Assembly (NCBI GenBank): GCA_013298595.1
Contig: JAAFIG010000003.1
Span: forward strand, 1-64,000
DNA from: Deinococcales bacterium
GTDB lineage: Bacteria; Deinococcota; Deinococci; Deinococcales; JAAFIG01
Direction: 5' to 3'
DNA length: 64,000 bases
Shown here: one piece after another, positions 41,738-57,327 of the stretch
Layout of the letters: each line of letters opens with the position of its first letter
How positions within the stretch are numbered: position 1 is the stretch's first letter
Position numbers and translations under genes: made by a program
Notes under the pieces: model-generated
The model's input: only the letters and a program-made list of their open reading frames with translations
What the model was told of the DNA's origin: nothing
Database searches by the model: none

Positions 41738-44700
41738 TTATTTTGCACCAAAGGTTTGTTCGTTAAATAAAAACTCGAGGCGGATATACAAACCTGGGCG
41801 GACACTGAAATTTCCTAAGCTCGAGTCAAAGCCAATCAGGTTTGTGCCAATGGTTAATCCGAGTTCGTTGGTGATCCGCCATGTACCTTCGAGTCCGATG
41901 GCGATGCGGCTGGAAACATTGGGTTGGAATTGCCAGATAGCTTGTGCACCAATACCGAGGTTATCTTGAATCCAGTAGCGAGTAGCAATGTTTATTTGCG
42001 CTGTGAATAAATTGCTGGCGTATTTGTAAGCAATACCGCCGCGTATCGTGAAGCGTTCGGTAGGGCTGTAGGTACTTTGGATTTCGCCTAGCGCTTCGTT
42101 GCCATTGGGTGCGTAAACACCTGTGCGGATTTGGTTTTGGGTCAGAATACTGAGATTGGCTGGACGGTAAGCTCCTGCGATGCTAAAGCGTAAACCGTCG
42201 CCGTTTGCAGCAAAGGTTGTCTCGAGATTTGGTGAGATAACCAACTGGCTATTTTTGGGTTGTAAGATAAATCCAAGGCGATAAACTTGTTTTAAGCCGT
42301 TGACTCCAATAGCAAATTGAGCGGCAGCAGTACCATTAATATCTTCGGTCTCGAGGCGTAAGGCAGTGTTAAGGCTGATGGTTGGACTCGAGCCAATCAC
42401 AGAGTTCAATTCTGCGCCAATGTTGGCTGTGAGGGCGGGGCTGAGTGGGATGCTGGTTTCGATGCCAAGTCGAGCGCGTCCAGCGTCGCCGCTGTTGGCT
42501 GGTAAGTCGTAAGCCGCACTAACGTTGGTGGTGCCAAATGTGCCACGTAAGGCAATTGCGCCATCGTTATTACCATTAAAACTGTAGGTATCGCGGATCT
42601 CGAGTTTGAGGTTATCGGTGATGGCGTATTCGATTGCACCTGCGATTTGAAATGGGGTGTCTGAGGTTAATGGTGTTCGAGCCTCGAGTGAGAATTTGAC
42701 CCGTCCAACATTGACTGCGCCGCTGGTAAGCAAATAGCCAAGACTATTAGGATTGGTATTTTGCCAACGCCATACAATACCTAAGCCGATGCTGAAAGCA
42801 CCTAAGCGTTGTGTAGCGCCTGCACCAAGGTCTGTGCGAGTGTCAAAGGTGACAAAGCTACGAGAGGTGCTGAAGGTGCTCTGTAGGCGCAAATCAGGGA
42901 TTGGTGTGGCAGTCAGACCAACTCGTAAAGAACTAGCAGGTTGGCTTGGATTGACTGCCACATAACCAATGCCAAGGGCTTGGTACTCGAGAAGGGCTTC
43001 AATAGCTTCATTTTTGTAACGTCCACCGACCGATAATGCCCAATCACTCGAGTATGCCAATTCAGATTCTAAGCGTAAGGTTTCGCTGGTGTAATTCAGT
43101 CCCAATGCCACTAACGGGCTGCTGTTGGGGTTAAAAGCCAGAGCTGTACCTGAAACTCGCCAGTTACCAAGGAGCACTTGAGCTTGTGTACCAAAGCGGT
43201 ACTCGAGTGGAGCTGTACCTGTGGCTGGAGCGTATTCGACCAGTAAAAACTGTGGGTTATTATTGTTATCAAAGGTGCTTAGTGGTTTGGTCAGGAAAAT
43301 AATGCCACTGATTGGGTCAATACTGTAATCAATTAAACGCACCAATTCGCGTTGAGCCAGAATCAAACCAGAGTTATCACGGTCTCGAGTAACAATGCGA
43401 ATACGTTCACTACCAGATTGTACAGCTTGGGGTAAACGATACAAACTTGTACCATCGCCAGGAGCGCCAAAAGGTTGGCTGGCATTGGTGTTGGTTAAAG
43501 TGGCTCGAGGTTGATAACTAGCAAAGGCTGTTAAGGTTAAAACAGGGTCACGCCAAAGGAGTTGTAAGCCTTGTTGCCGACTGTTATACGCACTCAATCT
43601 GCCAACAAAACCCGCTTGATAAGAGCCATACATAGCAAAGCTTGGACCACGCTCGAGACGAATATAAAATGGGTCAGAAGAATTGACATCTTGTCCGCGC
43701 AAAGCGGCATCGCCAAGAAGTGGGAAGCGTTCAAATGGGTTGGCAATTGGCTCGAGTGTGCCACTAAATTCAAAGACGGGAGCGAACGCAGCACGTAAGT
43801 TAATGCCAATGGTTAATAAGAAACCATTGCCAATACTGCCCCTAGCAAAGCCTTGTAAACCCGCACCAATGCTAAAAGGATCAGTGATTTCTGCGGCGAT
43901 ATAAGCGTTTCCAATCGCAATCCACGGGCGTTGACTCGAGACAACTGCAAATTCAACTTTGGTGATTAAATCGCCAAGCCGAGCTTCGGCACGAACCACA
44001 GTGCGATCTTGGATGCTGGAGAGTGGAATTTCAGCTACACCATTGATATAACGCACTTGATACCCTGCGATATTGGGCACAGCATCTGGCAGCAGCGGTA
44101 AGGGGTCAGAGAACCAATCCAGTACGCCATCACCTGTGGTTAAGTTATTGCCATCTAAAACCCGTAAACGCAGTGTTGGACGGTCTTGAGGGTCGGAAGT
44201 TAAATCGCCAACAGCTTCGATCAGTAATTTTGTGGCTTCACCTGCTAAGAACACATCACTCGAGTCAGCAACAAAGGCTTTGGTTTCTGGGTCAAAGGCA
44301 CGCAGGGTTAATTCGTTTTTGCCTGGTCGCAAACGCACAGCGATATATTCAATGGTTAAACGATTTGTGCCTTCATCGTAAGTGGTGCTACCTGCTTGTT
44401 CTTTGGGGACAAGCACACCGTTCATCCGAAATTCAATTTGCTCGGCTTTTAAGGGTAAATCGACCAAGACATTAATTTGATCGCGGTTACGAATGACTGT
44501 GCCACTAGCAGGGTTAACAATCAAAGCACCAACCCGTAAACGTGAGGCTGGCAGCGGTGTGGTGGCTGCTTGTGCTTGGCGTTGGTATGCCTCGAGAATA
44601 GCAGGGTCACCTTGAATCACACGGTACTGGGCTGGGCGATTGCCTTGGCTGGGTAAGCGAATAATAATACCAGCGCGATTCTCGGGCAAATTCAGTGGTT

Positions 44701-47020
44701 GGGTGTGGTTTAGCACATATACAATTTCGTGTTTGCCACGCAATTGCCCAACTTCCCAGAATAAATAATCGGCAGACTCGAGTGGATTGGCAAGCGGCTT
44801 AGTATCTAATCGGCTTGAATCGGTCTCGAGTGTTGCATCATCGGGGATGCGGTCTACAATAATCACTTCGGCATTGGCGGGGATATTCTCGAGGGTAAAG
44901 CGCAAACTGACTTCGCTACGACGCACTCGAGCTGGCAATTCACGGACTGGAATGCTGAGAGTGGCATCTGGAGCAACAGCTGTGGTGTTTAAACTGAGGC
45001 TGGCACTGATTGGAAAATCTCCTGCAATATCGGCTCGAGCTGCCACAGGGATAACTCGGGTTTCGTTGGCAGCTAAGGTAATGGTTGGTTCGAGTGGTTC
45101 AAAATTTAGGTCTGAGGCATTAAACGTTAAATTCAGTGTGATTGGGCGGTTAAGCGGATTGCTGACAACAATTTCTAGTGGAATACTTGTGCCAGGGCGT
45201 GGTGTGACTGTACTGGCTAAACGCAAACGCAAACCTGCATTAACTCGAGTAAACGCTGTTTGGGCTGTGACTGTTCGCAGATCAGGTGCGCTAGCAGTAG
45301 CAGTTAAGGTAGCGGTATCAGGTAAACCAGCTGTGACAGTGGCACGGTACTCGAGTTGACGGCGTTCACCAATCTCGAGTCTGCCTGTGCTGGGTAAGGC
45401 TTTCTGGACTTCTAAAAGCGGGTTTGTGCTTTCAGTCAATTCGTAATCGGTGGGTTGCTCACCAATATTCTCGAGCAGTAACGGCACCGTCACAACTTCA
45501 CCAGGTAAAGCTGGAGTGGCTTGGATACTGGTGCGGGTCAAACGCAATTCGGCAGGTTTGACAGCCCGTTGTACTGCCACTGTTAAACGGTCTGTGTTAT
45601 TGCTTGGGTTTGGGTCGTTTGTGGCACTCGAGACCACACCCACTAAGTCGTAGGTGCTGGCAGTACTGGAACGCAATGCCACTAAAACCGTGACACTCGC
45701 GCCATTTTCGATGGTGCCAAGTTGACAAGTTAAAACGCGTTGCTCGAGGGTGCAATTGCCTTGGCTGCTGCTTTGCGAAGTTGTCTCGAGACCCGTTGGT
45801 AAAGTCACACGGTAAACAGCGTTGCTGGAAGTGTTTGCACCGTTATTGTTGATGGTCGCAGTGAGGACAAAAGGTTCGTTGGGTTGCACAGGGTTGGGTT
45901 CGGCAACTTGGATAATCTCGAGGTCTGCTTTGAGGTTTGGGTCGGGGGTGGGATTAACTGGGTTTGTTGGATTGTTTGGATTGCTTGGTGTCGGATTCGT
46001 TGGATTGGTGGGAGTAGTTGGTGTGGTTGGATTATTTGGATTGGTGGGAGGGGTTGGAGGGATACCATTTGAGTTTGCTGGTGGTTTTGTGGGTGTGGTA
46101 GGAGGATTACCAATGGGTGGTAATGGTGGCACAACAATATTGGAATTGGTTCTACCTAGAATTAAACGCGGTGTGGTTAAGAGTGGCGGTGTGGTTGGTA
46201 AGGTCACGAAAACCGTGGCAAAAAATGGTTTAACTGTTTGCCGTGCCACTTCCCGAAAACGCATAGTAAACGCATTTGAACGCTGCTTTAGCGAAGCAAT
46301 TTTAGCACGAACTGTCCAAGTACCAAGTAATGCTTTGGTTACAAGAATCTCGTTTAATGCCCAAGCTCGAGATGCCGAACTGTTCAGGCGTTGCCGTTGC
46401 CCATTTGGTAATTGCAAGTAAAACTCGAGTTCGTTGCCATCTGCGTCGTAATTACCAATTTCTAAACCATGTCCGATCATGGCAGCAGTCACATTGAGTT
46501 GTGCTACGGTACGCTCTAAACCAAGATTGCCAAAGGCATTAGCGGTCATTTGGCTGGACTCGAGTTTGGCGTATTGTAAAGCCACAACAAAAGCATTTTT
46601 GCCATTGCCTGTGCTTTTCACCTCGAGCGGATATGTGCCCGCAGACAACGGAGCATGCCAGAAGCGTTCCCAACGGTTTCTTGAATCTGCACCGTAGTTT
46701 TGGGTTAAAAGCGTTTTTTGTTGTGGGGTGCGAATTATAAATTGTGTCTTCCATATTTTTTGGTCGTAACGTTCATCGCCGACATACCAATTAAAATCAC
46801 CTCGAGCAATTGGATCGGCTAAGTTCATATTGGGGCTACGCACTTCGATACGAACCCGTTGTGTACTTTGCAACGGTGGAATAATCAAACGATAATCATC
46901 TGTGCCAGCTTGCCAGTTTTGCACATTACCAAAACTCACCAATGGAAAAACATTGGTTTCTTGGGCAAAAGCAAAACTCGAGCAAAGCAAAAAACAAATC
47001 ATCAGTAAAAATCTGTTCAT
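41738..47020 (-). CDS. Large outer-membrane protein: Ig-like/DUF11 stalk plus C-terminal beta barrel
   Basis: This 1760-residue protein has a signal peptide (about 1-20). Residues ~25-260 form jelly-roll modules resembling pre-peptidase C-terminal domains. A Pro/Thr/Asn-rich linker lies at ~295-365, a CARDB/DUF11 module (ADLEIIQVAEPNPVQPNEPF) at ~365-480, and further Ig-like modules to ~1000. From ~1050 to the end are alternating hydrophobic beta strands typical of an outer-membrane barrel. At the barrel entry, GSERIRIVTRDRDN then LIDYSIDPISGIIFLTKP matches a motif seen in several giant barrel proteins. It is the last gene of the operon, and its ATG overlaps the previous stop by 4 nt. It is probably surface exposed; its role is unknown. 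Confidence 0.8.
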   Translation of the reverse strand: MNRFLLMICFLLCSSFAFAQETNVFPLVSFGNVQNWQAGTDDYRLIIPPLQSTQRVRIEVRSPNMNLADPIARGDFNWYVGDERYDQKIWKTQFIIRTPQQKTLLTQNYGADSRNRWERFWHAPLSAGTYPLEVKSTGNGKNAFVVALQYAKLESSQMTANAFGNLGLERTVAQLNVTAAMIGHGLEIGNYDADGNELEFYLQLPNGQRQRLNSSASRAWALNEILVTKALLGTWTVRAKIASLKQRSNAFTMRFREVARQTVKPFFATVFVTLPTTPPLLTTPRLILGRTNSNIVVPPLPPIGNPPTTPTKPPANSNGIPPTPPTNPNNPTTPTTPTNPTNPTPSNPNNPTNPVNPTPDPNLKADLEIIQVAEPNPVQPNEPFVLTATINNNGANTSSNAVYRVTLPTGLETTSQSSSQGNCTLEQRVLTCQLGTIENGASVTVLVALRSSTASTYDLVGVVSSATNDPNPSNNTDRLTVAVQRAVKPAELRLTRTSIQATPALPGEVVTVPLLLENIGEQPTDYELTESTNPLLEVQKALPSTGRLEIGERRQLEYRATVTAGLPDTATLTATASAPDLRTVTAQTAFTRVNAGLRLRLASTVTPRPGTSIPLEIVVSNPLNRPITLNLTFNASDLNFEPLEPTITLAANETRVIPVAARADIAGDFPISASLSLNTTAVAPDATLSIPVRELPARVRRSEVSLRFTLENIPANAEVIIVDRIPDDATLETDSSRLDTKPLANPLESADYLFWEVGQLRGKHEIVYVLNHTQPLNLPENRAGIIIRLPSQGNRPAQYRVIQGDPAILEAYQRQAQAATTPLPASRLRVGALIVNPASGTVIRNRDQINVLVDLPLKAEQIEFRMNGVLVPKEQAGSTTYDEGTNRLTIEYIAVRLRPGKNELTLRAFDPETKAFVADSSDVFLAGEATKLLIEAVGDLTSDPQDRPTLRLRVLDGNNLTTGDGVLDWFSDPLPLLPDAVPNIAGYQVRYINGVAEIPLSSIQDRTVVRAEARLGDLITKVEFAVVSSQRPWIAIGNAYIAAEITDPFSIGAGLQGFARGSIGNGFLLTIGINLRAAFAPVFEFSGTLEPIANPFERFPLLGDAALRGQDVNSSDPFYIRLERGPSFAMYGSYQAGFVGRLSAYNSRQQGLQLLWRDPVLTLTAFASYQPRATLTNTNASQPFGAPGDGTSLYRLPQAVQSGSERIRIVTRDRDNSGLILAQRELVRLIDYSIDPISGIIFLTKPLSTFDNNNNPQFLLVEYAPATGTAPLEYRFGTQAQVLLGNWRVSGTALAFNPNSSPLVALGLNYTSETLRLESELAYSSDWALSVGGRYKNEAIEALLEYQALGIGYVAVNPSQPASSLRVGLTATPIPDLRLQSTFSTSRSFVTFDTRTDLGAGATQRLGAFSIGLGIVWRWQNTNPNSLGYLLTSGAVNVGRVKFSLEARTPLTSDTPFQIAGAIEYAITDNLKLEIRDTYSFNGNNDGAIALRGTFGTTNVSAAYDLPANSGDAGRARLGIETSIPLSPALTANIGAELNSVIGSSPTISLNTALRLETEDINGTAAAQFAIGVNGLKQVYRLGFILQPKNSQLVISPNLETTFAANGDGLRFSIAGAYRPANLSILTQNQIRTGVYAPNGNEALGEIQSTYSPTERFTIRGGIAYKYASNLFTAQINIATRYWIQDNLGIGAQAIWQFQPNVSSRIAIGLEGTWRITNELGLTIGTNLIGFDSSLGNFSVRPGLYIRLEFLFNEQTFGAK

Positions 47021-50000
47021 GGCAGCACCTCATCCCAGTACAAATCGGGGTCGGTACAAGCACGTTCAGCTGCCACATTGGTTAATAGTGCATAACGAAT
47101 ACGGTATGTACCAGCCTCGAGTTGAGCAAATAGTAAAGCGCCATCTTCAGCGATAGAGAAATTTACTGTTTGTCCCGCAGCGTTTTGCACCTCGAGTTGC
47201 TTGCGTTCTGCACCTATTGGCAGTGGGTCGGTTAAGCGCAAATTTGCCACATTTTGTTGTAATTGCAACACCAAATTCACAGCATACCCTGCGCCACCAG
47301 CCACCACTTGTTTCTCGAGGTTAGCAATGCCCATAGTTAATGTGGTGCGGCGTGATTTTTGTAATTGGGCTTCTGGGGCAAGTAATGGGAAATCAATTTG
47401 TTGTGGGGCTGGGTCGTTGATGCTGACGTGGCGCGTGCCAACATTGGTGTCACCTGGCATAGATTGTAATGTCCACGGCGCGGATAATGGATCGAGGCGT
47501 AACGCGTATAAACCTGGTTGCAATTCAGGGAAACTATACCGCCCTTGGCTATCAGAGATGGTGTATGCACCGTTAGAGAGATAAATTCTGGCATGAGCAA
47601 GCGGATAATCCGAGCCATCAAACATACGATTACGGTTTTTATCAAAGAAAATTCTGCCCAGAATAGCACTGGCTCGTCCAAAAATACTGGCTTCAACTTT
47701 GACAGCAGCAATCGCATTATTGCTGGTCACAGAAATTTTATTTGCCCCACCAATGGCGGTGGCAATGGCACGGTTTTCGACGCGCTCAGGAGCGTTGGGT
47801 GTGACTAAACCAACCAAGCGAATCCGCAATGTAGTGTTGGCGTTCAGTGTGCCAATAGCCCAAGTCAGCACTTGTACACCACTTTGCACAGTTACGGTTG
47901 GCTCGAGTGGTATATCCCCTAAGCGGCTCGAACCAAGTTTATAAACAATACCCACGGGCATCGTATCGGTCAGGGTTAAATTCTCGAGTTTAGCGTTTTG
48001 TGAAGCATTACGGATGCGTAATTCGTAATCAATGCTACCACCAATACTGACCACGGTTTGTAAAGCACTTTTCTCGAGTTGTAAAATACTTCCTAGCACA
48101 TCAGTTTGTGTGGTGTTTGAAACAACAGGAATGACCACAGCTTGGCTGCTGATACTAGCGGTATTGAGGATTCGCTCGAGGTCAGGGGTATCTACACGCA
48201 CTTTTGCTAAGAAGCTCAGGGTTTTACTTTCGTTAATGGCAACATTGTTAAAACGCCATGTCAGAGTTTTGCTCACAGCATCAAATGTGCCATTACTCGA
48301 GATATTACTTGGCATTTCGAGTAAAGCACTGAGAATATCTGTGATGACAACATTGTTTTGTACGCTACCACTAACATTGCGCCAAGTTAAATTAAACTCG
48401 AGGGTTGTACCTTGGTTGACTCGAGCAGCACTGACTTTCTTTTCTAAAGTAAAGGCATCGCTGGATGGACGAATTCGGCTGAGAATACTCAGGGTACGGT
48501 TTTGTAAACGTGGTGCAAGAATGGATTGTAAACGCAGCACAGCTTGCCAACCATTGCCCGCATTATTACCAACCGTGCCAGTTGGCGGTATCACTTGCAA
48601 AGTCATGGCTCGAGTTTCACCCGCTGTCATATTGCTTAATTCGGGTTTTCCATTGTTGTTAGTATCGAGTAAAACGCTGCCATCGGCTGCCAGAAAACGG
48701 GTTGTCCAACCTGTGGGTAATACCGACTCGAGGTTTAACTCGAGGGTATCGGTGAATGAACTGGCATTGAGGACACTGAAATTGTAATTGGCATTAGCAC
48801 CCACAAAAATTTCTTGGCTTTGGCTATCAAGTGGGTCTGGGTATTCATTGACTGTGGCTTGTCCAAGTGGACCAATCCAAATAGCAGCACTGCTGGCTGC
48901 TACAACTATATTGGTGCTGATATCACTTAGCGTGGATAAACTGGCTTTGGTTCGCAGCACAGCTTTGATATTGGTAAAATTCAGCGGCAGCACAATTCGT
49001 ACCACCAGATCAATTTGTTCATTTGGTAATAAACGCACCGAATTGCGTGGCAGCAACATGGTTTCGTCTAAAAATTGCAGTGTTGCCCCTTGTAAGTCGC
49101 TACTGGTATCTAACTCAAGACTGAATGTATCGGCAATGTTACCTGTGTTTTGAATGGTATTGACAAAACTGACTGCAATACCACCTGGGACATTGACAAT
49201 ACTTTGGCTATCAGTTTGGTTTGTATTATCACCAGTTCGAGTAATATTCCATGTTTTACCAGTGGTTGGTTCAGTAAACATGTATGTGCCACTGGTTAAA
49301 CCATCGCGGGGCAAAATACTGATACCACTGCGTTCAAAAACACTCGAGACCGCCTCGTTTGATAACACTTGGCGTTTGCTATCTGTGGCATCGCCATACT
49401 CGAGCTGGGCAACATTGCGAATCCGTGTGCCGCCTTGAACAGTATTTAAAACGCGAACAAAAAAAGAAAATTGGAAACTCGAGCCAACCGCAAAAGTATC
49501 TTCGGGCAAAGCATCGGTACTGTGTGGGTCGCGCAGCAATAAACCAATTATAGTGGCTCGAGGATTCGGAATTGAACTCCATAATCCATTGGTTTGATAA
49601 ATAATCAGGCTGCCAAAACCTGTGCCTGTACTGGCAGTGGCTGGATTACGAATCTCGAGTTGTGTACCTGCGGGAATACTATCGGTCAGTAAAATACCAT
49701 CGAGTGGGTTGCCATCCACGCGCACCACACTGGCAATTGAACGAGCCGCCCGCTGACCAATGTTGTTACCAAAAATTTGGTACTCAATTAAACCAGTTAA
49801 ATCAGGTTCGGTGGCACTTTTAGCAAGCACAGGAGCAGCATCACGAACAACAGTCACACTACCCAAATTATTGTTATCCCAAAGCGTGGTATCGCTCGAG
49901 CGAGCTTGTAAATCAATCCGCGTCACAGCATTGCTGGCAGCAGTAGTAGGAATGGTACCAACAGCAAAGATATTGATTTTGGCATTAGGTGCTAACGTTA

Positions 50001-50514
50001 CGCTACCTGTAATCAGTGGTTCGCCTGCGTCCAAAATGGCATTGCCATTAGCATCGCGGTACAACAGCAAATTCTCGAGATTAAAAGCATCGGTGGTATC
50101 CTGAATTAAGCTTAGGGTAATTGTGTCCGAAGCATTACCCGAATTTTCTAAAGTGTAAACCAATGTAGCACTCGAGCCAGGATTACCAATACGATTATTG
50201 CTTGGGGCAACAGGTAAAGTAAAATTACTGGTTGGTGCGCCCACACTACTGGTATTGCCTGCATCTGGAATCAGATTGATTGAATAAATAGAGCGAGTGA
50301 CAATGCTGGCAACATTAGAAAGCGCATTGTAGGTGTTGCCATCGGCTGTTGTAAAACTGATACTGGCTTGGTTTTCGATTAACGTACCAGCCAATGTGGC
50401 ACGTTGTGCCAAAGCAGTATTGGTAAAAATGCAAAGCAAAAATAAGCAGCAACGCAAAACCCACTCGAGACCTGCTCGAGAGAAAATGCTTGGCATTGTT
50501 GCTAAAGTAATCAT
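47017..50514 (-). CDS. Secreted DUF11/SdrD-like repeat protein
   Basis: This is a 1165-residue exported protein. It has an N-terminal signal anchor (about 12-36, ending TALAQ), then repeated DUF11-type beta modules with the 'N-T-a-x-I-x-x-x-D-x-L' style (for example LEKSALQTVVSIGGSIDYELRIRN). An SdrD B-like/carboxypeptidase-regulatory module follows near residues 970-1035 (GRIFFDKNRNRMFDGSDYPLAHARIYL, then GRYSFPELQPGLYALRLD), and a last DUF11-like part. Such proteins build cell-surface layers or fibres. AGGAAAA precedes the ATG. It is coupled by ATGA to the barrel protein, which suggests they act together. Confidence 0.82.
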   Translation of the reverse strand: MITLATMPSIFSRAGLEWVLRCCLFLLCIFTNTALAQRATLAGTLIENQASISFTTADGNTYNALSNVASIVTRSIYSINLIPDAGNTSSVGAPTSNFTLPVAPSNNRIGNPGSSATLVYTLENSGNASDTITLSLIQDTTDAFNLENLLLYRDANGNAILDAGEPLITGSVTLAPNAKINIFAVGTIPTTAASNAVTRIDLQARSSDTTLWDNNNLGSVTVVRDAAPVLAKSATEPDLTGLIEYQIFGNNIGQRAARSIASVVRVDGNPLDGILLTDSIPAGTQLEIRNPATASTGTGFGSLIIYQTNGLWSSIPNPRATIIGLLLRDPHSTDALPEDTFAVGSSFQFSFFVRVLNTVQGGTRIRNVAQLEYGDATDSKRQVLSNEAVSSVFERSGISILPRDGLTSGTYMFTEPTTGKTWNITRTGDNTNQTDSQSIVNVPGGIAVSFVNTIQNTGNIADTFSLELDTSSDLQGATLQFLDETMLLPRNSVRLLPNEQIDLVVRIVLPLNFTNIKAVLRTKASLSTLSDISTNIVVAASSAAIWIGPLGQATVNEYPDPLDSQSQEIFVGANANYNFSVLNASSFTDTLELNLESVLPTGWTTRFLAADGSVLLDTNNNGKPELSNMTAGETRAMTLQVIPPTGTVGNNAGNGWQAVLRLQSILAPRLQNRTLSILSRIRPSSDAFTLEKKVSAARVNQGTTLEFNLTWRNVSGSVQNNVVITDILSALLEMPSNISSNGTFDAVSKTLTWRFNNVAINESKTLSFLAKVRVDTPDLERILNTASISSQAVVIPVVSNTTQTDVLGSILQLEKSALQTVVSIGGSIDYELRIRNASQNAKLENLTLTDTMPVGIVYKLGSSRLGDIPLEPTVTVQSGVQVLTWAIGTLNANTTLRIRLVGLVTPNAPERVENRAIATAIGGANKISVTSNNAIAAVKVEASIFGRASAILGRIFFDKNRNRMFDGSDYPLAHARIYLSNGAYTISDSQGRYSFPELQPGLYALRLDPLSAPWTLQSMPGDTNVGTRHVSINDPAPQQIDFPLLAPEAQLQKSRRTTLTMGIANLEKQVVAGGAGYAVNLVLQLQQNVANLRLTDPLPIGAERKQLEVQNAAGQTVNFSIAEDGALLFAQLEAGTYRIRYALLTNVAAERACTDPDLYWDEVLP

Positions 50515-50563
50515 TTTATTTTCCTAAGTAACTTTATAAAAAGTATTGCGTTTCTCAATAACC

Positions 50564-50663
50564 CGCTCCCGTTAGACGAATCTACGGGAGCGAACAGAAG
50601 AGGTCTGCACTTCGTGAGGCAGTACCAATGACGAGGTGCAGCCCCCACATTGTGAGGGCTGCA
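50564..50663 (-). ncRNA. Structured inter-gene RNA with mutually exclusive hairpins
   Basis: Within the operon transcript (minus strand) three hairpins can form between two DUF11 genes: TGCAGCCC/GGGCTGCA (50637-50663), CTGCAC..GTGCAG with TCGT/ACGA (50605-50641), and CGCTCCCGT/ACGGGAGCG (50564-50592). The first two share the arm at 50637-50641 and cannot coexist. No T tract follows. It may be an attenuator, processing site or stabilising element. No known RNA family was recognised. Confidence 0.55.
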
Positions 50664-50672
50664 TTGTCCGGA

Positions 50673-53600
50673 TTAGCGAACACTGACCTTGAAGGTAATC
50701 GTAATGGTTCTACCATTTGCAAAGGCATTAACGGGTGTTGCAGCAGCATTGATCACTTGTAAACGAATGTTGGTGACACGCACAGCGTCGTCACTGTAAC
50801 CATTACCGTTGGTATCAGCAGGAGCAGTAGTGCTCCAAGTTGCACCACCATCAGTGGAGTACTCTGGGGTGCAAGTGTACCCTGCGCCAAGTACAGCAGC
50901 GCAATCTTCGGTGATCGAACCAAACTTAAAGTCTGTGAAAGCTGGAATAGCGTCAAAGACAATTAAATTGGTCACAGGACCACTACCAAGGTTAGCTGCC
51001 GTTATGGTATAGGTAATTTCACTTTGGTTAAAAGCGGCTGGCAATAACAAACCACGTGGTTTAGCTTCGTTACCAGCATTGATGGTAGTAGCTGTTTTTG
51101 TTACCAGCACATTACCAGCCACAACAGTGGTGGTGTCTTTGACACTAGCGGTTGAAGTACCATTCACACCGAAAGTTGCGGTTGCTACGATGTCACGAAC
51201 ATCTGAATCGCCAATCGAAACAGCGTTAGAAGCTGTGCTGACTTGGACAAAAACCGTGCGTTGTTGATTTGGCAAAATTGCCGCAATAGTGGTTGCACTG
51301 GTACTCGAGATAATTGTGTCTGTAGCATCAATGCTACCAACTGTGCCACCCGATGGGTTATCCAAGTAAACAGTATACGTAAAGCCTGGTAAACCAGCAG
51401 CTGGTGTCATTTGTAAAGCAGTAATGCTCGAGTTACCATTGTTGGTTAGTGTGTGGGTGTGAATAACGGTACCACCAACTGAAACGGTACGGGTGCTATT
51501 GGCAATAAAGTCCAAAGCATTGTTTGCATTGATGGTCAAGGTATTAGCAATTGAACCAACAACAGCGACATTGGAAGTTGATGTGGCTGTAAAGTTAATT
51601 GGCAAGTTGCTTTGTGGAGCTGCATTGCTTGGGATGGTGACAAGAGCCACCAGTTGCACGACACCGTTGCTGGTCGCTGTGCTTGGATTGAGCACACCCG
51701 TTGTTGTTGCAACAGGTTCGCCTGCATCCACAACACCGTTACCATTGGTATCAACGTAATACACAACCGAACCACCACTTGGTACACCTGTGCCATTAAC
51801 CGACAGTGTAAAGTTGTCAGCACTTGCACCTGTGTTACGAATAACGAGTGGATAAGAAACAGTTGCTCCAGCGTTACCTGTTAAACCAACTGGGGTAGCG
51901 CTTGTACCTGTTGGAGCAGCTGGTGTAAAGCCGCCCGTAGCTGGGTTGGTTGTGGCGCTCGAGTCGTTATTGAAAACTTCAACACTGACACCATCGGTTA
52001 AGGTAGTAAAACGATTAACAGTAATATCGGTAATGGTTGCATTGGCTGATGAAGTTGCACGAACAACTGCGTTCCAACCATTGACGGGAGCTGTAGGTGC
52101 GGTTGCACCATCAAAGATAACTTTGACAACCACGTTAACTGTTGCACCTGCGGTCAGACTGATAGGACCTGAAATTGGGGTGATACCATCAGCAGCAAAT
52201 AAAGCCACTGATGTATTGGCTGGCAAATTACTTAATGCAGCGTCGTAAAGCACATCAAAGCTTTGGGTTGAATTGCTGTTATTACGAACAGTGTTGACAA
52301 AACAACCTGTTGAATTCATTGGGAAAGCATTTGGTACAACCGTGCGGTCTGCACCAGTGGCTGTGGTTGTGCCCGTTGTGCCTGCAATAGCAAAAACAGC
52401 AGGAGCAACAGGGTTACGGCGACCCGTTACTAATTCGGTACAAGAAGCAGCTGCACCAGCTAAGTTGCCTGTTAAAACTGTGCCATTGGCAAGGCTGGCT
52501 TGTCCGTTTGGCGCGACAGCTACACCAAGAATGCTCGGCATATTGACAGTCGCTGTTGCAGTTTGTACAACAGGTACGACTGAGCTTGTACCATTGGAAG
52601 TAATGGTTGCAGTGTCAACAATTGGTGTTCCAGATGCGGTAGTGGTTGGTACTGTCACTGAAAAATTCAAAGCATAATCGGCACTAGCACAAAGCGTATT
52701 GGCTGGTGTAGCAGAAGTATTAGCAGCAGCAGCCACTGGGCTGGCTGGCAAAATCAATAAGCCAACTCGAGTAATCGAAGCGGCAGCTGGAGCAGTTGCA
52801 GTCCAAGCAGGAGCAATTGCAGCTGTTTGATAAACCACAAAGGTTAAAGCACCACCTGATGAACCTGTGGCAGTACCCGTAAAGACTGTACCAGCAGGGA
52901 CGGTTGGGATGGCATTGTTAATTAAAATGCCGCTGTAATTGGCATTTGGCAAAGCAACCGTTGCACCCGTAATTTGTACCGAGTTTGGCACAGAACGAGC
53001 ACATTGATTGCCCGAGTTTGTTCCAGCAACAGCGTAGTTAATCTGACCAGTTGTTGGATTTGGACCCGATGGGGTGATGTTAATATCTAAAATAGCATCG
53101 GAAACAGTGGTCACTTGCGATAAATTATTGCGATCACGTTCGTTAGTTGCTGAAGCTGCAAAAGTTGCACCACGGTAACCAACCAGATCGAGTTTACGTA
53201 CCAAACCAACTGTATTTGGTGTAGTGGAAGTCACAACCACTCGAATACTCGAATTAGCAGCAACACTCACAGTTCCTGTGCGGGTGGTTGAGTTCCAACC
53301 TGTAATTAATAGTTCACCAGAATCAGCAACGCTGTTGTTATTAGTATCAAAATACACATTGATATTGCTTAAAGGTGATGCTGCATCGGCGGGGTTTAAT
53401 TCGACATTTAAGGTATAAACATCGTTACCATTACCAGGGTTACTAATGATATATCCAAAATTTGTGGTTCCACCCGGTAAGCTCGAGTCAATATTTGAAT
53501 TGGCGGGTACGCCTGTAAAATTGGTAGTTGCATCATCAGCAGCAAAAGAGCCTGTTGCTGAAACAGTGTTTGGTGTGATATCCAAACGGAAAACTTGCGA

Positions 53601-53774
53601 AACCACTGTCACAGCCGCTAAAGACGTGGTTACTTGTGGTGCACCGAAACCATCAATATAGGTGGCACTAGCGGTGTTTGAAATGGTTTCTCCCGCTCCA
53701 GTGGTTTGGGCAAATACCGAACTTGAGAACAGCAAACCTGTCAGGGCGAGAATTGCTCCTACTTTTTTAATCAT
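50673..53774 (-). CDS. Secreted DUF11-repeat protein, Thr/Ala/Val-rich
   Basis: This is a 1033-residue exported protein with a signal peptide (MIKKVGAILALTGLLFSSSVFA, cut near 23). It starts TTGAGETISNTASATYIDG, a typical DUF11 N-terminal strand also used by its operon neighbour. Several calcium-site-like stretches (DTNNNSVADSGELLI, DTNGNGVVDAGEPV) recur near residues 150 and 680. The composition is extremely Thr/Ala/Val/Asn rich with few charged residues, as in surface-layer proteins. A strong GGAGG precedes the ATG. CTCGAG is unusually rare here (5 copies in 3.1 kb). It is likely the most abundant product of the operon, by inference. Confidence 0.82.
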   Translation of the reverse strand: MIKKVGAILALTGLLFSSSVFAQTTGAGETISNTASATYIDGFGAPQVTTSLAAVTVVSQVFRLDITPNTVSATGSFAADDATTNFTGVPANSNIDSSLPGGTTNFGYIISNPGNGNDVYTLNVELNPADAASPLSNINVYFDTNNNSVADSGELLITGWNSTTRTGTVSVAANSSIRVVVTSTTPNTVGLVRKLDLVGYRGATFAASATNERDRNNLSQVTTVSDAILDINITPSGPNPTTGQINYAVAGTNSGNQCARSVPNSVQITGATVALPNANYSGILINNAIPTVPAGTVFTGTATGSSGGALTFVVYQTAAIAPAWTATAPAAASITRVGLLILPASPVAAAANTSATPANTLCASADYALNFSVTVPTTTASGTPIVDTATITSNGTSSVVPVVQTATATVNMPSILGVAVAPNGQASLANGTVLTGNLAGAAASCTELVTGRRNPVAPAVFAIAGTTGTTTATGADRTVVPNAFPMNSTGCFVNTVRNNSNSTQSFDVLYDAALSNLPANTSVALFAADGITPISGPISLTAGATVNVVVKVIFDGATAPTAPVNGWNAVVRATSSANATITDITVNRFTTLTDGVSVEVFNNDSSATTNPATGGFTPAAPTGTSATPVGLTGNAGATVSYPLVIRNTGASADNFTLSVNGTGVPSGGSVVYYVDTNGNGVVDAGEPVATTTGVLNPSTATSNGVVQLVALVTIPSNAAPQSNLPINFTATSTSNVAVVGSIANTLTINANNALDFIANSTRTVSVGGTVIHTHTLTNNGNSSITALQMTPAAGLPGFTYTVYLDNPSGGTVGSIDATDTIISSTSATTIAAILPNQQRTVFVQVSTASNAVSIGDSDVRDIVATATFGVNGTSTASVKDTTTVVAGNVLVTKTATTINAGNEAKPRGLLLPAAFNQSEITYTITAANLGSGPVTNLIVFDAIPAFTDFKFGSITEDCAAVLGAGYTCTPEYSTDGGATWSTTAPADTNGNGYSDDAVRVTNIRLQVINAAATPVNAFANGRTITITFKVSVR

Positions 53775-53798
53775 ACATCCTCCAAGGATTAGGTTGAA

Positions 53799-54281
53799 TT
53801 ACTTAATTTTGACGCGGGCTTTAAAGGTGACTGAGGCTTTAGCTGCCAGTGGAGCGCCGACCACCCAACGCAAATGGGTGTACTGATTGACTGGGACGAG
53901 TTCTTCAACAGTTTTGCCATCTTTGGTGACTTTGCGTTTCAGTGGTAACGCTGCAAAACTACGTTTGTTATCTGCTGAAGCTAGTAAAGTGGCAACACTT
54001 GCCACATTAGTGGCGCTTCCCTCGAGATAAACCGTATTTTTTGGAATGGGTAAATCCATCACCAATTTTGTGATTGGTTTATCTGTTGGGTTTTGAGCAG
54101 TGGTTCGGTACTCGAGAACACTACCTGGTTTAGCACTATTTGCTTTCTCGAATTTCTCCGTGGTTTTACCATTGCTGGTTGTGCTGACCACCAAGAAACT
54201 CTCAAGCAATAATTGTGGGCGTTGAGCAACTTGCGCTACTGCAAGACTCGTAAAAAACATCAGCCAGATTGCTAATTTCAT
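53799..54281 (-). CDS. Small exported DUF11-like protein
   Basis: This is a 160-residue protein with a signal peptide (about 1-16, ending AVAQ) and one beta-rich DUF11-like module: GSVLEYRTTAQNPTDKPITKLVMDLPIPKNTVYLEGSA (about residues 53-90) is the 'x-Y-x-x-x-x-x-N-x-x-x-x-x-x-x-x-x-x-x-D-x-x-P' core. Basic residues are frequent. It lies 24 nt before the next DUF11 gene and has a strong AAGGAG. It may be an accessory or assembly partner of the larger surface proteins, an inference from position only. Confidence 0.75.
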   Translation of the reverse strand: MKLAIWLMFFTSLAVAQVAQRPQLLLESFLVVSTTSNGKTTEKFEKANSAKPGSVLEYRTTAQNPTDKPITKLVMDLPIPKNTVYLEGSATNVASVATLLASADNKRSFAALPLKRKVTKDGKTVEELVPVNQYTHLRWVVGAPLAAKASVTFKARVKIK

Positions 54282-54455
54282 AGATACTCCTTGGTTTTAT
54301 TCTATGGCTTGGGGTTTGGATTCTTTGGTTGATTCCGACATGGCTCTGAGACGCTAAAAACTATATTTTGCTGCAACATACTGCTTATTGTCACACAAAT
54401 CACAATATCAGCACAAAACCTTCTGGTTAGGCAAAGTGTAAGGGTTCTGTAAGCG
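54282..54455. other. Inter-gene spacer in the surface-protein operon
   Basis: This 174-bp gap separates the lectin-like gene from the small DUF11 gene. It has no ORF. It is A+T rich near 54360-54420, with ACAAT/ATTGT repeats and TATAGT on the minus strand that could serve as an internal -10. I see no clear terminator. An internal promoter is possible but not proven. Confidence 0.4.
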
Positions 54456-57167
54456 CTAACGAATCGTGGCTCGGAAACAAACCTGACCTACTTGACCTGC
54501 CAGTAACGTTGGGACTCGAACAGTCACAACACCAGCCGCAAATTCGCCCGCATCAGCATCGGCAGCATCAGAGAGTGGTGTTGTGACCGTATTCAAAACC
54601 AAACTTAAAGAACCCGTTACAAAATTGGTAAAAAACGGAATTGAATCACGAATGACAATACTGGTGATTGTACCCGTACTGCTATTTTGAAAATAAATAC
54701 AATACTCGAGGGTTTCACCTGGTTTACCTTGAGCTGCTAAAGAAAATGTTCCACCGCTCGAGAAATTTCGTACCAATTTTGATAAACTTAAACCACTACC
54801 AATACTCGAGCCACCAATTCGCACAGTGTGTTTAACCCCAACCGCATCTATACAAACAGCATTATTTTGCCAGAACAAACGTGCATTTAAAGTTGGCATG
54901 GTTTGTTCACCTGCAGGTCTGCCTGTTGGTGAACGCACCACAAACTCGAGATTACAAGTTTTTAATTGTCCATCGGCTAAACGTTGCCAATTGGCATCAA
55001 CAGTAAAACTGGGCGCGCTGCTACTGATTGGCACGGCTACACTTGAGGTTCGTTCGGCAGCACTGAATATGCCATCGCAATTACTATCTACGTACACCAA
55101 ATAACTGTAATTAGTTACCCCAGCTAAATTCAGATGCACAGCCCCTAGTGTTCCAGGGCGATACGCTTGCACAAAGACAGTGCTACCAGGGCTGGGAATT
55201 TGCGCTGTTTGATTTGACAGCAACGTACTTTTTGGCACAATCCCAAAGTTATAACCTGCATAAACTGTACCCGCCGCAACTGTTAATGTCTGCGCTCGAG
55301 CGGCTACATCGCCAAAACTCGAGGCAAGCACAGGCGAAGCATTATTGATATTTTTACCTGTTGGCACACTGAGTGCATGAGAAATAACCACGGGATTCAC
55401 CCAGCCAAAACCCACCCATAAGGTGTAATTACCATTGGCATCGGTGTTGCTCGAGTCTACATTAACACCACTGGTAACTTGCACTGCCGCTGCTGTCACA
55501 GGTTTTTCGATACCATTGCGAATACCATTATTGGCATTTGTAACCACACTGTACGGTGCTGTAGCGGTGCTGTTTAAACCATCATCAACAAAGATATTGC
55601 CCGTAATTTTAGCCCCTTGGAAATTACCAAAATTTTGTTGCACCAAATTAAACTGCGTAATACTGGTCACTCGAGGGTTAGCTGTGGTAAACACGTAATT
55701 TGTCACTGCATTTTGGGTGATCGTGTAATTACCAACTGGTAAGTTGGTAAATGTATAAACACCACTGGCACTCGAGGTTGTGGTGGCTGCACTTGCGCCA
55801 GCTAAGGTGAGCGTAATACTTGGCAAAATACCTTCGCTGGTTTCCTTAACTAAATTATGGTTTGCATCAATAAAGACGACACCTGTGATCTGGTACCCTT
55901 GCACAACTGTACTAGCGCTTGGAAGATTGTTCGTATCATCAATGTCACCAATGCCTACAGGTGGACTCAGACTACTCGAATTGATAACTGTAGTAGCCGC
56001 TGCTGCTGGCAATATTTTACCTGTAATCACAATGGTGGCAGTACCACCAGCCGTTAAAGTCAGCAACAAACTGATATTGCTATTTGTACCACTGGCACTC
56101 GAGCAAGACCCTGCACCAGAAGCAACGCACGTCCAACTTGTCACTTGAATGGTGGTTGGAACAGTATCCGTGAGAATTGCGCCAACCACAGTAAAACCAC
56201 TGGTGTTTAATGCTCCTAGTGTGTAGGAAATAGTATCGCCAGGGATTGCGTTGGCTAAACTAGCGATTTTGGTCAGTTGTAAATCCACCCGTAAACTAAC
56301 CTTGACATTGCGAATTTCGTGAAAATTGGTCGAACCACCTGTTGAAGCTGCAAAACCAATTTTTAAAGTGGCTGGTGGTGCACTTGGCAAATTAAAAGGG
56401 GCAATAACCTGCGTAAAAGTGCCATTTTGTACAGTCATCCAACGGACAGAAGCCAAATACCCACCCACACCATTGGGTTGGATAATCATGTTGACTCGGC
56501 GGTAATAGGCTGTTGGAACAGGTCGGGTAGTGGTTGTGCCTGTACCAGCATCAACGCCAGGCGTTAAAGTGGCTGTACCTGCTAAATAATTATAGCCTGT
56601 TGCCCCATTACCCGGTCCACGAATCGAAATAGCATCTGGGCGTACACCCGGTCCGCCAGTGGTACAACGATCTGCTGAACTAGAAAAATTACCGAATTCG
56701 TCCAAAGCAATGCCAACATAGCCGTTGGATAAGCCACCAGGACTACCACCATACCCTTGGCAGTACCCTAGCGCTCCACCAAAATCGCCAATTTGAAAAG
56801 TGGTGGTTGAACCATCAAATAAAAACATGGTGATACCATCTGCGCCAGTACCGCCCCACGATAAATACTCGAAATCAATTTCAAACCCTAGCGGTGTCGG
56901 AAAGGCAGTGTTGTAATAGGAATACCCTTTTTGATTACCTGCATTACTGGTTAAGCGCAACCAACCAGAACCTGCAGGGTCTATGACTGTTGGTGTTGCC
57001 GCCGAAGTCAGGCGGGCATTATTACCAAAAACCCAACCAGGGGCTGTAGCATTGGTGAAGGGTTCATTGACTGCGAACTGAGCTTGAACTTGTCCAGCAC
57101 AACAAAGAATCAACCACATCAGTAAAAATGGTTGCCAGCACTGCTTAAACCTCGAGAATTGTTTCAT
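54456..57167 (-). CDS. Secreted L-type-lectin/DUF11/SdrD-like surface protein
   Basis: This is a 903-residue exported protein. After the signal peptide (about 1-30) comes a lectin-like jelly roll, residues ~35-290 (FEIDFEYLSWGGTGADGITMFLFDG, then YVGIALDEFGNF), as in bacterial L-type lectin domains. DUF11 (QLTKIASLANAIPGDTISYTLGALN) follows at ~295-400, and SdrD B-like modules (ITGVVFIDANHNLVKETSEG; ITGNIFVDDGLNS) at ~425-640. A second DUF11 module is at the C-terminus. It would bind surface or matrix glycans. It is the first gene of the leftward operon. The ATG at 57167 directly follows a TTG that could also start it. Confidence 0.82.
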   Translation of the reverse strand: MKQFSRFKQCWQPFLLMWLILCCAGQVQAQFAVNEPFTNATAPGWVFGNNARLTSAATPTVIDPAGSGWLRLTSNAGNQKGYSYYNTAFPTPLGFEIDFEYLSWGGTGADGITMFLFDGSTTTFQIGDFGGALGYCQGYGGSPGGLSNGYVGIALDEFGNFSSSADRCTTGGPGVRPDAISIRGPGNGATGYNYLAGTATLTPGVDAGTGTTTTRPVPTAYYRRVNMIIQPNGVGGYLASVRWMTVQNGTFTQVIAPFNLPSAPPATLKIGFAASTGGSTNFHEIRNVKVSLRVDLQLTKIASLANAIPGDTISYTLGALNTSGFTVVGAILTDTVPTTIQVTSWTCVASGAGSCSSASGTNSNISLLLTLTAGGTATIVITGKILPAAAATTVINSSSLSPPVGIGDIDDTNNLPSASTVVQGYQITGVVFIDANHNLVKETSEGILPSITLTLAGASAATTTSSASGVYTFTNLPVGNYTITQNAVTNYVFTTANPRVTSITQFNLVQQNFGNFQGAKITGNIFVDDGLNSTATAPYSVVTNANNGIRNGIEKPVTAAAVQVTSGVNVDSSNTDANGNYTLWVGFGWVNPVVISHALSVPTGKNINNASPVLASSFGDVAARAQTLTVAAGTVYAGYNFGIVPKSTLLSNQTAQIPSPGSTVFVQAYRPGTLGAVHLNLAGVTNYSYLVYVDSNCDGIFSAAERTSSVAVPISSSAPSFTVDANWQRLADGQLKTCNLEFVVRSPTGRPAGEQTMPTLNARLFWQNNAVCIDAVGVKHTVRIGGSSIGSGLSLSKLVRNFSSGGTFSLAAQGKPGETLEYCIYFQNSSTGTITSIVIRDSIPFFTNFVTGSLSLVLNTVTTPLSDAADADAGEFAAGVVTVRVPTLLAGQVGQVCFRATIR

Positions 57168-57327
57168 CAAATCACTTCAATATACCGAATCAAGTCACAA
57201 TTGGTTGGTCAAAACAACATCACACCATGAGGGGTTGCAACACCCTTGGGTTAGGGTTGGCATATATTATTTTTTATGTCACAAATTGATGATTACAAAA
57301 CACCCTATGCTTTTGCCTAAGACGTTC

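Follow-up and report, generated by a model that had tools for sequence, protein, structure and literature searches.

Five adjacent genes in a Deinococcales genome combine DUF11-type proteins with a lectin-like module at one end of the set and a very large predicted barrel at the other. What kind of surface structure could these proteins form, and how would their parts be joined? We addressed this question in a window of 64,000 nucleotides, the whole stretch of DNA that was analysed. In a first-pass annotation, two of the leftward genes had been assigned to long DUF11 proteins and one each to a lectin-like DUF11 protein, a small DUF11 protein and a barrel protein of 1760 aa with Ig and DUF11 parts, a description that the open reading frames, their Pfam matches and the model of the barrel protein bear out. 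In the reading that we consider likely, these genes specify a five-part donor-strand pilus of diderm bacteria that is built on split DUF11/CLIPPER domains sealed by Lys-Asn bonds, with protein A serving as chaperone or cap and protein D as anchor.

The five-gene locus and its conservation

The list of open reading frames and their translations place genes E, A, B, C, and D, in this order, on the minus strand between 57170 and 41738; all features of the window given below lie on this strand. Gene E (P0005; 54456..57170) starts at 57170, the ATG at 57167 named earlier being its second codon, and encodes a tip candidate of 904 aa in which a variable N-terminal module (here L-type-lectin-like) precedes DUF11, SdrD_B, and a conserved C-terminal DUF11 body. 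The 160-aa product of gene A (P0004; 53799..54281) consists of a signal peptide and a single DUF11-type body without the last strand, the catalytic Asp, and the conserved Lys. Gene B (P0003; 50673..53774; 1033 aa) encodes the putative major subunit with an N-terminal donor strand and a C-terminal acceptor body, and gene C (P0002; 47017..50514; 1165 aa) a protein with an N-terminal donor tail, internal DUF11 domains, SdrD_B, and a C-terminal region that adjoins D. Gene D (P0001; 41738..47020; 1760 aa) encodes an N-terminal Ig/DUF11 region followed by a giant C-terminal barrel. Pfam analysis recovered Lectin_L-type_dom, SdrD_B, and DUF11 in E, two DUF11 domains and SdrD_B in C, and one DUF11 domain in D (residues 366-481; 45578..45925), while B and A gave weak DUF11 matches (NCBIfam B_ant_repeat). 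Membership in the CLIPPER/DUF11 family (PF01345) is indicated by the Pfam matches in C, D, and E together with a Lys-Asp-Asn triad. As read from the sequence, all five proteins start with Sec-type signal peptides; with regard to the lipoprotein feature of type V (Mfa/FimA) pili, those of the A to D precursors read as ordinary AxA|Q-like signal peptides. The flanking genes (DUF4886, flavin monooxygenase, hydrolase, DUF1801, TetR) are unrelated.

The last two genes, C and D, for which translational coupling had been claimed, overlap by 4 bp; the remaining intergenic gaps measure 174 bp (E-A), 24 bp (A-B), and 158 bp (B-C). Two strong hairpins are found in the B-C gap (50515..50672; z -4.7 in the window), and each of the 19 gaps examined has a GC-rich hairpin directly 3' of the stop codon of B (z between -1.1 and -4.7), a signal that is weakened by the GC-rich genomes. 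Such a hairpin would be in keeping with B being expressed more strongly, as major pilins are. Scans for promoters and terminators gave no informative signal.

Of 111 genomes of the phylum, 60 contain D, 84 contain A, and 76 contain E-type C-termini. In 35 genomes, A, D, and E share a single contig, where they fall within about 17 kb; in most of the other tabulated genomes the three are split by contig ends. Since the same genes are linked in 35 genomes, the set is not a chance neighbourhood. The gene-order comparison, named beforehand as a test able to refute the set, revealed that the order is kept across Deinococcota and is found again in two further phyla. Complete A-B-C-D-E clusters are present on pTT27 of Thermus thermophilus HB8, in Deinococcus sp. 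QL22, and in D. ficus, and profiles for A, B, C, the D core, and the E C-terminus recovered the same order over the fetched loci of Thermus, Meiothermus, Calidithermus, and further relatives. Deinococcus radiodurans carries B-C-D on MP1; in strain R1 there is no A at this locus and no E beside D. The genes DR_B0071-75, considered as the D. radiodurans cluster, were rejected as they represent a fructose operon, and the tags TTHB179-183, presumed for T. thermophilus, yielded no literature. In 33 of the 35 linked genomes E is located beyond D, and in the other two, those of the window's own family, it is beside A. What stands of the term operon, which had been applied to the locus, is a same-strand set linked in 35 genomes; the operon itself is unproven, given the three intergenic gaps and the position of E at the opposite end of the cluster in most relatives. 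A is also found alone, without D, in genomes of one family (f3; L057-L062 in G009, G023, G090, G005, G020, and G029), several times beside ABC-transporter pairs, which indicates that A has a role outside the present system.

The spread beyond the phylum rests on matches from a plasmid search with D. Plasmid p4 of Acinetobacter haemolyticus carries A, a broken B, a fused C-D gene (2008 aa), an OmpA-family gene, and E; the fusion independently supports a joint action of C and D. On p4, the B gene is distributed over several reading frames (L075:5843-8677), A, C-D, and E are open, and the OmpA-family gene is located between C-D and E. The cyanobacterium Synechococcus sp. NIES-970 has the order B-A-C-D-E with a 4-bp overlap of C and D. 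In both organisms the profiles matched A with 58-59 bits, C with at least 74 bits, and D with 94-140 bits. A two-gene version was observed on a plasmid of the alphaproteobacterium Pelagibacterium (L076:5072-14499), where a gene for a 1907-aa C-like protein overlaps by 4 bp with that for a D-like barrel annotated as a TonB-dependent receptor; similar barrels are present on several related plasmids.

DUF11 domains divided between proteins

The internal DUF11 domains consist of a body followed by a last strand with the pattern '.GT.I.NtA.v.Y.D..G'. Mature B and C open with this last strand, the body being absent, and A, B, and E end in a DUF11 body that is cut off directly before it. In the window, the N-terminal donor tail of mature B (TTGAGETISNTASATYIDGFG...; 53580..53708) is the most conserved stretch of B; that of mature C (QRATLAGTLIENQASISFTTADG...; 50275..50406) was recognised by profile match and by comparison of the N-termini. 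The C-terminal acceptor bodies of B (50676..51122) and of E (54459..54785) both keep the Lys and the Asp, and that of E, in which the last strand is absent, ends at position 89 of the 128 positions of the DUF11 model. Nearly all B and C orthologues possess the tail consensus 'PAGTxIxNQASASYxDSAG' or a near variant; in B this stretch reaches mean pairwise identities of 0.64 and 0.57, compared with about 0.33 as is typical of B.

We compared these termini with a DUF11 profile of 128 positions that had been built from 137 internal domains only. All 39 mature B and C N-termini matched it solely at positions 92-125, and the C-termini of A, B, and E matched the body, mostly ending at positions 88-90. 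Where a DUF11 match reached the C-terminus of a protein, it stopped at positions 84-95 in 36 of 37 cases. A single N-terminus scores low (0-12 bits, with shuffles reaching up to 10), so that the evidence rests on the consistency of the positions and on the reciprocal search. In the latter, a profile of the tails found 18 internal sites at 6 bits or more, compared with zero when the proteins were reversed or shuffled. Of the 18 sites, 16 are located in DUF11 domains at positions 80-95, and one is a mis-started B. Within the 4.58 Mb of the genome from which the window derives, the tail occurs at two N-termini only, those of B and C, and at one internal site in C. The tails of the Acinetobacter and cyanobacterial proteins match as well (26-39 bits; 8.7 for the cyanobacterial C). 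Incomplete Ig-type subunits with an N-terminal donor strand, a feature of chaperone-usher pili, are present here by profile.

It is conceivable that B, C, and E are separate fibrillar adhesins that are individually held at the surface by D, each tail closing the C-terminal body of its own chain. DUF11 proteins usually form the stalks of fibrillar adhesins (PMC12617251), and other D paralogues accompany giant DUF11 proteins that are devoid of tails. However, the tail of C is combined with a different, D-adjacent C-terminal domain, and E and A possess bodies and no tail. Self-closure therefore fails for A, C, and E, whereas complementation between chains uses all parts, and we regard the existence of separate adhesins as improbable.

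Donor and acceptor were also modelled in a single chain by reading through the stop codon of A into the start of B, an artificial construct whose readthrough is in frame in the window and in seven relatives. The A body was modelled with pLDDT values mostly above 90, followed by a disordered linker and the B tail at 79-87. Single-domain pilin and Ig structures align with this model from residue 1 (or 3) to 206-208, corresponding to the 139-residue body of A plus the tail of B. The alignment with BcpA (3kpt) has a Z of 14.1 over 130 residues at 2.4 A; further aligning structures are those of EbpB, T. thermophilus TTHA1873, and YcnI (119/128 residues). As the alignments run through the A body into the B tail, the tail appears, in the model, to fill the place of the last strand of the A domain, a reading taken from alignment ranges, not contacts.

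DUF11 corresponds to the CLIPPER domain, in which a Lys-Asn isopeptide bond is accompanied by an Asp, the three residues being represented in crystal structure 9IFR by Lys715, Asp748, and Asn806 (PMC12617251). In the internal domains of the fetched loci, K/D/N are present at positions 7, 41, and 99 in 133 of 137 cases, and the spacing K7-D41-N99 agrees with K715-D748-N806 of 9IFR within one residue. The donor strand carries the Asn in 39 of 39 tails. Bodies of B contain the Lys in 21/21 and the Asp in 20/21 cases, and those of E contain both residues throughout (19/19 each); the Lys of B and E was read from separate alignments, since an insertion hides it in the global alignment. In A, the position of the Asp is occupied by I/L/V in 18 of 19 proteins, and the conserved Lys is absent. 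From this residue pattern, with Lys and Asp in B and E and neither in A, it would follow that B and E can act as covalent acceptors and A solely as a reversible one. The split joints are probably sealed by spontaneous Lys-Asn bonds.

A donor-strand fibre might also do without covalent sealing, the tails completing the bodies, with Lys and Asn packed in the core but unbonded. The split itself is clear, the conservation of Lys, Asp, and Asn could be structural, and A, if it binds tails at all, works without the triad. Against this stand the almost invariant K/D/N set of the intact domains (133/137), the bond seen at matching spacing in the CLIPPER crystal, and the loss of the pair in A alone, which suggests a functional difference. 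We consider an unsealed fibre unlikely and retain the reading with Lys-Asn-sealed joints.

The barrel protein D and the tip candidate E

A model of the D core from 26 sequences consists of Ig domains followed by a barrel. In the window, the predicted barrel (41765..43921) has about 38-39 strands (AlphaFold2 pLDDT 83.1), and a conserved 84-residue domain (43256..43507), inserted after the first seven strands, is a candidate for a plug. Fold comparison of D ranked FimD first (Foldseek E 2e-8; VIA Z 16.4, with an rmsd of 12.6 A over 279 residues); since porins (Z about 15) and LptD score close to it, the comparison indicates a large barrel, not kinship. None of the 26 D-type sequences has a Pfam match to Usher (PF00577), and hhalign of the D profile against six K-12 ushers yielded a probability of 7.8%. 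In view of these two results and of the other barrels near FimD in the fold list, D was rejected as a distant usher. SprA is not among the fold matches listed, an absence that carries no weight against it.

Three more D-type barrels are encoded in the same genome (G000; C68:97654-118313, C4:46653-72042, and C19:58154-64660; L025-L030), with frames of about 1224-2713 aa. Two of them adjoin C-like DUF11 proteins of giant size (4191 and 6346 aa), and at these three loci there is no A, B, or E and no donor tail. The extra barrels and giant DUF11 genes constitute a second, two-gene type of system, and the absence of tails implies that D can serve non-polymeric proteins. D-type barrels in general probably hold DUF11 surface proteins. 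Upstream of the gene for the 6346-aa protein, three tandem open reading frames (834, 1172, and 1248 aa; C4:72026-81972; L027, L028) all end at DUF11 body position 89 with near-identical C-termini; they are either separate acceptor-type proteins or one interrupted gene.

At its N-terminus, E contains an L-type-lectin-like domain (residues 65-288; 56307..56978) that is matched by Pfam with an E-value of 1.4e-11 and 45 bits, below the gathering threshold of 78. Its motifs GADGITMFL and GIALDEFGNF resemble the metal/sugar-site motifs of legume lectins and may serve as such sites in E. The N-terminal module varies by species and can be lectin-like, DUF3344-like, DUF6923, or a beta-helix. PDB sequence searches with the lectin part of E, with B, with the A family, and with a DUF11 domain of C returned nothing useful.

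A conserved C-terminus behind variable N-terminal modules is also what might be expected if E were cargo sorted by its C-terminus in the manner of type IX secretion, with the very large D as translocon and B and C as accessories. Essentially one strong E-type C-terminus is found per genome, however, and it is situated beside D; there is no cargo set, and A and B end in the same type of body as E. No T9SS family matches were obtained in A to E, and PorP_SprF matched weakly (E 0.06) in one of the 26 D members. These observations make a secretion system very improbable, and the C-terminal domain of E was rejected as a general sorting signal. A 184-aa frame that consists almost solely of the E C-terminal domain (L066:9739-10293) occurs in a genome without D (G056) and is a remnant of a lost cluster.

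A proposed donor-strand pilus and its relation to known systems

From the genes, their order, the divided domain, and its residues we infer a polymer whose polarity, joints, chaperone, export, and sugar binding would be as follows. The subunits would be exported by Sec and their tails bound by A. The tail of one subunit would then complete the C-terminal body of the next, giving the order E<-B<-B...<-C-D with E as tip, B as rod, C as base, and D as barrel. E, which has a body only, would form the distal tip, its body taking a B tail; B, with tail and body, would form the repeating rod, its bodies taking further B tails. The last B would take the tail of C, whose C-terminus, tied to D, would constitute the base. 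Lys-Asn bonds that form spontaneously, with no need of a sortase, would subsequently seal the B-B, E-B, and B-C joints. As a free body without Lys and Asp, A would hold tails reversibly as a chaperone or cap. D would sit in the outer membrane as a barrel of ~38 strands, its Ig domains in the periplasm, would provide the platform and anchor and is probably also the exporter, perhaps as an exit pore, and the interchangeable N-terminal module of E (lectin-like here) would bind the target surface.

Chaperone-usher and type V pili are known examples of assembly by strand donation. With the chaperone-usher pili (type 1, FimA-H) the present system shares the N-terminal donor strand and the incomplete Ig-type C-terminal domain and, as predicted, a two-part tip adhesin and a platform formed by an outer-membrane barrel. 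It differs from them in that there is no Usher family match, in that D has about 38 strands vs 24 in the FimD barrel, in its DUF11 subunits with predicted covalent joints, and in that A would accept strands and not donate them; a Pfam match to a PapD/FimC-type periplasmic chaperone was not found in A to E. The system appears to work like a chaperone-usher pilus and yet to be unrecognisable as one.

In SpyTag/SpyCatcher, one isopeptide domain is split into a strand and a body that recombine covalently; that pair is engineered, whereas here a natural version on a CnaA-like domain is predicted. Sortase-dependent pili (BcpA, SpaD, EbpB) likewise contain isopeptide-stabilised Ig domains, and among single-domain structures theirs match the fold of the body-plus-tail model best, but the joint predicted here is self-forming. 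No LPXTG-type C-terminus was seen when the C-termini of A to E were read directly, and neither the five genes nor the scanned flanking genes include one for a sortase.

In the archaeal thread filament of Saci_0406, head-to-tail donor-strand complementation is combined with an intermolecular isopeptide bond between Asn57 and the N-terminal amine of Asp24, which belongs to a subunit two positions along the filament (PMC9715654). Strand donation and an intermolecular isopeptide bond are common to both systems, in the present one as a prediction; the bond of the threads is not a canonical Lys-Asn triad in one split domain, and threads lack an outer membrane or barrel. The CLIPPER (DUF11) domains of fibrillar adhesins belong to the same family and have the Lys-Asp-Asn triad at matching spacing (PMC12617251; 9IFR), but their bond is intramolecular in intact domains, whereas here the domain is divided between two proteins.

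The earlier proposal of a self-contained envelope system, in which a barrel serves as anchor or exporter for fibres with a tip, is supported by the conserved set and order of the genes. Its further statement that the set does not resemble any named secretion or pilus system also holds. The split-domain logic, which suggests how the parts join, is new beyond that annotation. Full-text literature, in which few subscription papers were covered, on DUF11 with donor strand or isopeptide and on intermolecular isopeptide with donor strand contained no account of the present system.

We see a fair chance that the system is a new pilus class. The more specific claim can be put forward tentatively: a class found at least in Deinococcota, Cyanobacteriota, and Pseudomonadota, in which the joints are divided CLIPPER domains sealed by Lys-Asn bonds, an usher-unrelated barrel of ~38 strands exports and anchors the fibre, and A, without the triad, acts as a reversible chaperone. 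The model makes a direct biochemical claim, namely that two named residues in different proteins are covalently joined. If it is true, widespread unannotated 'DUF11' or 'hypothetical' proteins represent a complete pilus system, including one on plasmid pTT27 of T. thermophilus, a species used in the laboratory, and a partial one on MP1 of D. radiodurans. It would constitute a natural counterpart of split tag/catcher chemistry and a third architecture for covalently joined fibres, besides archaeal threads and sortase pili, and D would rank among the largest outer-membrane barrels predicted. The pTT27 cluster of T. thermophilus HB8 (L009:15474-21900) is located a few kb from type I-E CRISPR-Cas genes.
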